Shown: positions 4,894 through 18,140 of the stretch, piece after piece
Layout of the letters: each line of letters opens with the position of its first letter
Position numbering within the stretch: position 1 is the stretch's first letter
Source of the DNA: an uncultured Eubacteriales bacterium
Lineage (GTDB): Bacteria > Bacillota > Clostridia > Peptostreptococcales > Anaerovoracaceae
Assembly: GCA_902786855.1 (NCBI GenBank)
Contig: CADAEH010000001.1
Span: forward strand, 124,001-188,000
Length of the DNA: 64,000 nucleotides
Reading direction: 5' to 3'
Position numbers and translations under genes: made by a program
The notes under the pieces: generated by a model
Seen by the model: only the letters and a program-made list of their open reading frames with translations
The model's database searches: none
What the model was told of the DNA's origin: nothing

Positions 4894-4993
4894 AAAGAGA
4901 ATATATATTGCGCAGGGAAGCGGTCGACCCTCGGTGCGAAGTCCAACGTCGAAGACGTTGGATCTAGCGACCGAAGCAATATATATTCTCTTT
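4894..4993. repeat. Structured repeat, copy A: 18-bp inverted arms around a conserved 64-nt core
   Basis: Left arm AAAGAGAATATATATTGC (4894-4911) and its perfect complement (4976-4993) enclose 64 nt. Within the core, CGGTCG (4921-4926) pairs with CGACCG (4968-4973). The apical hairpin is TCCAACGTC-GAA-GACGTTGGA (4942-4962). The core is 61/64 identical, in opposite orientation, to copy B at 17963-18060, with 57 nt continuously identical (4919-4975). Both outer ends run into T tracts on the strand read (TTTCCTTTTT on plus, a six-T run on minus). Lying between convergent psuG and dnaN, this copy looks like a bidirectional terminator carrying an insert in its loop. Function is unknown. Confidence 0.9.
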
Positions 4994-17962: not shown

Positions 17963-18060
17963 AAAGAGAAATACGTTCCTTCGGTCGCTAGATCCAACGT
18001 CTTCGACGTTGGACTTCGCACCGAGGGTCGACCGCTCCGCTACGGAACGTATTTCTCTTT
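17963..18060. repeat. Structured repeat, copy B: 17-bp inverted arms around the conserved 64-nt core
   Basis: Left arm AAAGAGAAATACGTTCC (17963-17979) and its perfect complement (18044-18060) enclose a 64-nt core. The core is inverted relative to copy A and identical to it over 57 nt (17980-18036). The internal pairing CGGTCG/CGACCG (17982-17987 with 18029-18034) and the apical 9-bp hairpin (17993-18013) are conserved. Unlike copy A, no long T tract follows on either strand, and the element lies between co-directional gyrB and gyrA. A stop-free frame crosses it, but that is a by-product of the repeat. Confidence 0.9.
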
Positions 18061-18140
18061 AAAAATCAGAATCGATCAAAGACCTGATATAAAATCAGCG
18101 TTTCTCCGGAACGCTTTGCTTAGAACAAAGGAACAACATA

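Follow-up and report, generated by a model that had tools for sequence, protein, structure and literature searches.

A rare dispersed repeat family with a conserved core and covarying arms in gene spacers of uncultured Clostridia

Dispersed repeats such as ERIC, Correia/NEMIS, RPE and YPAL are, in the account given by one source (PMC2229807), non-autonomous elements of about 100-200 bp that are mostly non-coding, lie between genes and form end-paired stem-loops. REPs are described as shorter, at 20-40 bp (PMC3733652), and the accounts cited here tie them to RAYT genes (PMC3116915, PMC2817692, PMC3733652). According to a survey of stem-loop repeats in 40 genomes, 67 of 92 families were previously undescribed (PMC2267715). 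Template switching between inverted repeats is reported to homogenise the arms and to invert the spacer (PMC8604942), and it is proposed as a process that forms and maintains RNA stems, giving compensatory changes (PMC8794818).

The repeat described here, designated family A, resembles the bacterial MITE-like repeats in that it is short, non-coding, dispersed and intergenic and forms a stem-loop, with six copies in six spacers. It differs from them in that its ends are variable and its interior is conserved, where MITEs have conserved terminal inverted repeats; no TA termini or target duplication was seen, and there are one or two copies per genome. REP and REPIN sequences, as these sources describe them, are likewise intergenic hairpin DNA and probably non-autonomous, but family A is about 90-100 bp in size and was found beside none of 15 Y1 loci. 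The families in PMC2267715 are also intergenic repeated stem-loops, a likeness drawn from the descriptions in that source and not from the sequences. The template-switch systems, as far as they are described in PMC8604942 and PMC8794818, are similar to family A and its sister families B and F in arm homogenisation, multi-base paired changes and spacer inversion; those systems are short repeats in yeast genes and rRNA stems, whereas here it would be the way in which dispersed repeat families evolve as a rule. The open-licence literature, searched by topic and not by sequence letters, yielded no naming of family A. In its working, family A is most like a small non-autonomous mobile palindrome, though one that has neither MITE ends nor the size and RAYT linkage of REPs.

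The window analysed, a stretch of 64,000 nucleotides, comes from a 2.9-Mb draft assembly of 62 contigs that is 87% complete. A sequence-only reading of the window had described two intergenic elements with 64-nt cores on opposite strands, and the description was borne out: the cores are identical at 61 of 64 positions, including a run of 57 nt, and in both copies the 64 nt are closed by perfect arms, of 18 bp in copy 1 and 17 bp in copy 2 (Table 1). Between the two copies, three arm pairs have changed from one Watson-Crick pair to another and one indel affects both arms, while one-sided changes are absent; 14 of 17 arm bases are held in common, while the flanks and the loci differ. A separate repeat finder drew longer, imperfect arms around both copies. 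When a 26-nt core probe was run on the window with up to 3 mismatches, only copies 1 and 2 were matched, and there were no matches in 100 shuffles. In 464 kb of the same genome, surveyed for inverted repeats with arms of at least 12 bp and loops of 8-220, the two copies were the sole inverted repeats with arms longer than 14 bp. Copy 1 lies between convergent genes for an Indigoidine_A-family protein (named psuG) and DNA polymerase III beta (dnaN), and the two copies bracket dnaA, each within about 11 kb of it. A different 114-bp dispersed repeat, closed by AACAGACGCCGA/TCGGCGTCTGTT, was also found in two copies in the 464 kb (L089:17802-17915 and L100:2141-2254).

Table 1 Features of the two family A copies in the window.
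Feature	Position	Strand	Remark
Copy 1, whole	4894-4993	+	100 bp arm to arm
Copy 1, left arm, 18 bp	4894..4911	+	perfect complement of 4976-4993
Copy 1, core, 64 nt	4912..4975	+	61/64 identity with copy 2
Copy 1, first invariant core strand, 23 nt	4919..4941	+	same in 6/6 family A members
Copy 1, apical hairpin, 9-bp stem and 3-nt loop	4942..4962	+	from folding; pair changes across members
Copy 1, second invariant core strand (TCTAGCGAC)	4963..4971	+	same in 6/6 members
Copy 1, right arm, 18 bp	4976..4993	+	complement of left arm
Copy 2, whole	17963-18060	-	98 bp arm to arm
Copy 2, arm, 17 bp	17963..17979	-	perfect complement of 18044-18060
Copy 2, core, 64 nt	17980..18043	-	opposite strand to copy 1; between gyrB and gyrA
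Copy 2, second invariant strand	17984..17992	-	six-member alignment
Copy 2, apical hairpin	17993..18013	-	from folding and pair changes
Copy 2, first invariant strand, 23 nt	18014..18036	-	six-member alignment
Copy 2, other arm, 17 bp	18044..18060	-	complement of first arm

The alternative raised at the outset, that there are only two copies and that these are a simple recent duplication, was overturned by four further copies in three other genomes, whose arms are unrelated in sequence yet complementary. Among 48 genomes of the genus, four carry the family, with six copies in all: copies 1 and 2, which are the only ones in their own assembly (G000), two in G015 and one each in G036 and G001. 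The covariance-model search proposed with the sequence-only reading was carried out on the 48 genomes and recovered the same six copies. A search of these genomes for the exact first core strand also returned the six known copies only, none of them split by a gene. Each copy occupies a different spacer, namely psuG/dnaN, gyrB/gyrA, htpG/ParA-like (L018), two amine oxidases (L019), ackA/PFOR (L020) and rplL/rpoB (L021), where psuG, htpG, ackA and PFOR are names that we presume for the Pfam matches at these loci. Since the six copies lie at six spacers in four genomes, family A is a dispersed family and not a two-copy duplication. At L018, a possible upstream start of one neighbouring gene would overlap the element. 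Arm to arm, three copies measured 100, 98 and 97 bp, and the other three are similar (about 90-100 bp).

The distribution of the family is narrow. Among 394 genomes drawn from the order, the covariance model matched three, all of this genus, with G001 absent from the matching rows. A looser core pattern run over the GTDB species genomes found the same four loci in three relatives (uncultured Clostridiales or Clostridia), and a stricter core pattern found no match there; neither the order draw nor the GTDB pattern scan found family A outside the genus. Viral, phage and plasmid collections, searched by exact patterns or blastn only, gave no match. One of 30 fetched dnaN loci and one of 30 fetched gyrA loci contained the element, in both cases that of the window's own genome. 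Family A is thus uncommon and scattered, has so far been seen in a single genus, and pairs a conserved core with covarying arms. The G015 acetate kinase gene beside the element (L020:2003-3159) was found as two overlapping frames, and the gyrA match of G069 (L081, G069:C2:13242-14135) was found to have one in-frame TAA; both are perhaps assembly errors.

When aligned, the six sequences agree throughout in 47 of 105 columns. The invariant strand AGCGGTCGACCCTCGGTGCGAAG precedes the apical hairpin and TCTAGCGAC succeeds it. The arms are unrelated in sequence between species but complementary within every copy, and no arm-end sequence is common between species, a point that bears on any comparison with integron attC sites. 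Both copies in the window, folded as RNA and as DNA, scored better than all 200 shuffles on both strands. When the named structure was laid on the six sequences, 94.4% of 160 cells were paired; 15 of the 27 pairs had changed on both sides, and a one-sided change to a standard pair was seen in one cell. None of 500 shuffles was as good on any of five measures, and all slid registers were far worse, a comparison that is biased in favour of the structure by its having been drawn from the tested sequences themselves. The proposal that the repeats form an unnamed structured family, invariant in the core and covarying in the arms, was supported. The sequence-only reading had recognised no named RNA family in them, and Rfam at gathering score gave no match in the window; below threshold, the best match at copy 1 had E = 4.2.

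The inner helices that had been proposed stood in part. In the helix CGGTCG/CGACCG, four of the six pairs hold in all six members, while the outermost pair is broken in three and the next in one. The four central pairs are invariant, so covariation neither supports nor contradicts them, and when the strand with TCTAGCGAC is folded as RNA to minimum energy, TCGGTGC pairs with GC.GACCGA in place of CGGTCG with CGACCG. The 9-bp apical helix does fold as a hairpin, and in four of the nine pairs both bases vary among the six members, but an A.G mismatch occurs in four members and an A.C mismatch in one member.

In relatives, the spacers that hold family A contain other cores, set between other complementary arms. 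Two such sister families, B and F, are built on the plan of family A, with variable complementary arms, conserved strands and a variable apical hairpin. Family B (CCGCAG-hairpin-CGAGGAC) gave 66 pattern matches in 25 of the 48 genomes, and G015, G068 and G001 account for 34 of these (loci L151-L180); the reversed control pattern gave 10 matches in the 48 genomes and none in these three, and some of the 66 are chance coding matches. Four of the 34, two look-alike pairs in G015 and G068 that were not fetched, showed no apical hairpin. For 22 family B matches the context was assessed, and 20 midpoints fell between predicted frames and two inside one. In viral contigs, exact patterns or blastn only gave no match to family B. 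Compared with L157, the B orthologues L171 and L176 carry a further hairpin module, about 43 nt long, next to the core. In G015, four B matches occur within 18.5 kb including dnaN (G015:C38:17341-35853; L160, L161), two of them directly flanking dnaN, and a clustering of family B near the origin in this genome is possible.

Family F, a highly conserved structured repeat (GGTACTAAGCTCTG-hairpin-CGCTAAGTGCC), gave 77 exact pattern matches in 30 of the 48 genomes and none with the control; the window's own genome had no match to the exact pattern. Its loci include the gyrB-gyrA, ackA-PFOR and dnaN-flanking spacers of relatives (L031, L049, L055, L060, L065, L079, L200, L244-L253). Rfam at gathering score found only a tRNA in 19 of 20 loci, and up to E 0.5 it found no match in ten loci, three F loci among them. 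We do not claim homology between the A and F cores: a circularly permuted likeness (GACTTCGC, TCGCTA) reached P of about 0.02 in one of six comparisons, chosen post hoc.

The sequence-only reading had offered two explanations for the paired arm changes, selection for an RNA stem or copying of one arm from the other, and these proved to be the right pair of mechanisms to weigh. Covarying pairs are present as they would be in a selected RNA, but DNA arm copying predicts the same pattern. We therefore counted base pairs in the ungapped arm helices of the three families (751 Watson-Crick, 8 G-T, 12 A-C and 17 other). Family A contributed 85 Watson-Crick pairs and no others from six elements, family B 487 Watson-Crick, 7 G-T, 8 A-C and 11 other from 29 elements (L153, L171 and L176 were left out, their extra hairpin displacing the left arm), and family F 179 Watson-Crick, 1 G-T, 4 A-C and 6 other from 14 of 15 elements (L252 was left out). 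The count seeks Watson-Crick runs and so lowers all mismatch classes alike. With 8 G-T against 12 A-C, an excess of G-U wobble over A-C is absent on both strands.

Comparisons between duplicates and orthologues pointed in the same direction. The B orthologues L163 (G015) and L175 (G068) differ at 2 of 159 positions, and the two differences are paired with each other (T-A to A-T). Over 300 helix pairs in 11 duplicate or orthologue comparisons (11 of 14 aligned comparisons were used), there were 12 Watson-Crick to Watson-Crick double changes, 18 one-sided changes (11 other, 6 A-C and 1 G-T), 4 other doubles and 6 indels. By our own arithmetic, about 0.7 Watson-Crick doubles would be expected if the sides changed independently, compared to the 12 observed. 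One-sided changes in family B lie towards the outer ends in three comparisons, though not solely there. Downstream of dnaN, at the dnaN-psuG site, the B core is inverted between G001 and G015 within homologous arms that carry three paired changes. Both features of template switching, paired changes in single steps and spacer inversion, were observed, the inversion in family B only; neither the inversion nor the single-step paired change was seen in family A. Because there is no wobble excess, L163 and L175 differ by a paired change, doubles are in excess and a B core has been inverted, arm-to-arm copying of DNA is favoured, and the evidence leans towards arms homogenised at the DNA level rather than by RNA selection.

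Duplicates within one genome that have arms and core in common and different flanks were found for family A (copies 1 and 2) and for family B (L155:7781 and L161:1210, whose 20-bp arms are identical but for one paired change). These duplicates indicate that the arms travel with the core. Of 30 ackA-PFOR spacers fetched, that of G015 contains family A, that of G068 has a 19-nt palindrome, CTTGAGAACAATTCTCAAG, in its place, and the other 28 have neither. The G068 hairpin has arms that correspond to the outer arms at the occupied G015 site, and the G068 form could be a deletion between 5-bp direct repeats (GAGAA) or equally a pre-insertion hairpin. No target-site duplication was found, the sites seen being this possible deletion remnant and one diverged empty site, and none of the loci compared was proven to be a clean pre-insertion site for family A. 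At the G015 B copy L160:7342, compared with the short window spacer at about 22820, the outer arm pair is TATCAGTT/AACTGATA and its left half is present in the window site. A single 8-bp case proves nothing, but it hints at arms that take their start from host flank.

Family A has a conserved core and complementary variable arms, lies in gene spacers, differs in presence between two close relatives at one orthologous site and has sister families, and we regard it as probably, if not securely, a non-autonomous, MITE-like mobile palindrome whose core is conserved and whose arms are homogenised at the DNA level. Arms and core would move as one unit between gene spacers, and a putative trans-acting activity would recognise the conserved core, its folded form or both. 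The arms, judging from the mutation patterns, would be under little sequence constraint. Polymerase template switching inside the palindrome would copy one arm onto the other, so that the arms could drift in sequence while staying Watson-Crick paired and the core would be flipped now and then. Selection may preserve the core itself because it is needed for movement, because it affects the transcript, or for both reasons. Against the mobile reading stand the lack of a linked transposase at the 15 Y1 loci, the lack of a target-site duplication and of a proven clean pre-insertion site for family A at the loci compared, the one-sided changes in the family B helices, and the arrangement of a conserved core with variable ends, which is the reverse of a classical MITE. 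A broader idea, which we put forward as speculation, is that these are inside-out hairpin elements, in which families are defined by a conserved internal-loop core and the arms and apical stem are sequence-free and rewritten by arm copying; A, B, F and smaller families would represent parallel lines of a single mobility mechanism, one that recognises a folded single strand by its internal loop, and the arms might even originate at insertion as inverted copies of the flanking host DNA. Covariation is the usual proof of a selected RNA structure, and family A shows covariation without RNA-like wobble. If the mobile reading is true, the family would offer a natural test of template switching in DNA as a mimic of RNA covariation, and it would caution those who use covariance to discover new RNAs. 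The analysis also opens up repeat families without Rfam matches in core-operon spacers (gyrB-gyrA, rplL-rpoB, dnaA-dnaN) of uncultured Clostridia.

The main rival to a mobile palindrome is an RNA structure maintained by selection on its hairpin, acting in cis or as a processed transcript, in which compensatory changes would arise by ordinary mutation and selection and the conserved core would serve as an internal loop for binding a protein, a ligand or a nuclease; we consider this the less probable account, but one to be taken seriously. The strong covariation in family A, the conserved strands between two variable helices, the positions in core-operon spacers such as gyrB-gyrA and rplL-rpoB, the optional extra hairpin of L171 and L176 and the common plan of families B and F would all be in keeping with it. 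Orientation is also biased: as written, family A is antisense to both neighbours in 4 of 5 co-directional spacers and family B is antisense in 8 of 10 unique ones (10 of 12 with orthologues included), so that A and B together have the same mRNA strand in 12 of 15 unique co-directional spacers (two-sided binomial p of about 0.035, our arithmetic). This bias, together with the one-sided changes (six A-C to one G-T, equivalent to G-U on the usually transcribed strand), is a hint of an RNA role. Ordinary structural RNAs, however, carry many G-U pairs, and the arms have almost none on either strand. Family A lies in sense orientation at rplL-rpoB and in antisense at gyrB-gyrA, close relatives differ in whether the ackA-PFOR site has the element, the B core is inverted at one site, and there is no match in Rfam.

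The remaining explanations fare less well than a mobile palindrome or an RNA. It is unlikely that the arms are pre-existing intrinsic terminator stems into whose loop the core and apical hairpin insert. Arm sequence varies from site to site as such insertion would have it, the G068 site without a core is a small hairpin matching the outer arms of the G015 site, and the A-tract and T-tract edges at copy 1 and L009 are like those of plain terminators at the dnaN site in G007, G030 and G065; yet copies 1 and 2 have most of their arm bases in common at different loci, as do the B duplicates, and terminators are not expected inside gyrB-gyrA or rplL-rpoB spacers. A mobile terminator insert, or a general terminator role, had been suggested and was not upheld: by eye, a T-rich tail is present at only two of six A copies, copy 1 among them, and a T-tract is absent from the other four, including copy 2. 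A terminator scan, restricted to loops of 3-8, found none at copies 1 or 2, and its sole match, at 18097-18115, is another hairpin. The least probable explanation is a replication or nucleoid signal near oriC, which the position of copies 1 and 2 on either side of dnaA and the four B matches around dnaN in G015 would suggest. Of the six A copies, however, four are found elsewhere (at htpG, ackA-PFOR, amine oxidases and rplL-rpoB), the one in G036 at a distance of about 44 kb from dnaN, and 44 of the 48 genus genomes have no match to family A, which argues against this earlier suggestion.

Also very improbable is a REP-like element mobilised by resident RAYT (Y1) transposases, although PF01797 (Y1 transposase) genes occur in 25 of the 48 genomes, among them all four A carriers (G000, G001, G015 and G036) and the B carrier G068. 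A RAYT-type REP had been suggested as one possibility, but none of 15 Y1 loci of 2.5-4.5 kb each contained the exact A first strand or the B or F pattern, and family A, at about 90-100 bp, is well beyond a 20-40-bp palindrome. Seven of the loci (L230, L231, L233, L234, L235, L237 and L238) instead contain GGGACGGTYCT-type repeats, three more contain GGGGACWG-type repeats, which likewise resemble a RAYT partner, and five, including the three from the window's own genome, contain neither. The Y1 loci and the GGGACGGTYCT-type repeats are likely to be a RAYT/REP pair, where the RAYT label and the repeats as its REP partner are our presumption. Similar repeats were seen in the L056 and L195 spacers.

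Two smaller arrangements were observed downstream of dnaN. A short variant, with complementary arms around GCCGGTCGACTGCGAA, occurs in G006 (L185, about 1374-1387) and G066 (L186, about 1453-1466); it has CGGTCGAC and TGCGAA in common with family A and, judging from these motifs, may be a related minimal form of it. In G064, the spacer at L030 contains repeated large palindromic units ending in GGAATATAAATGAATCTC.
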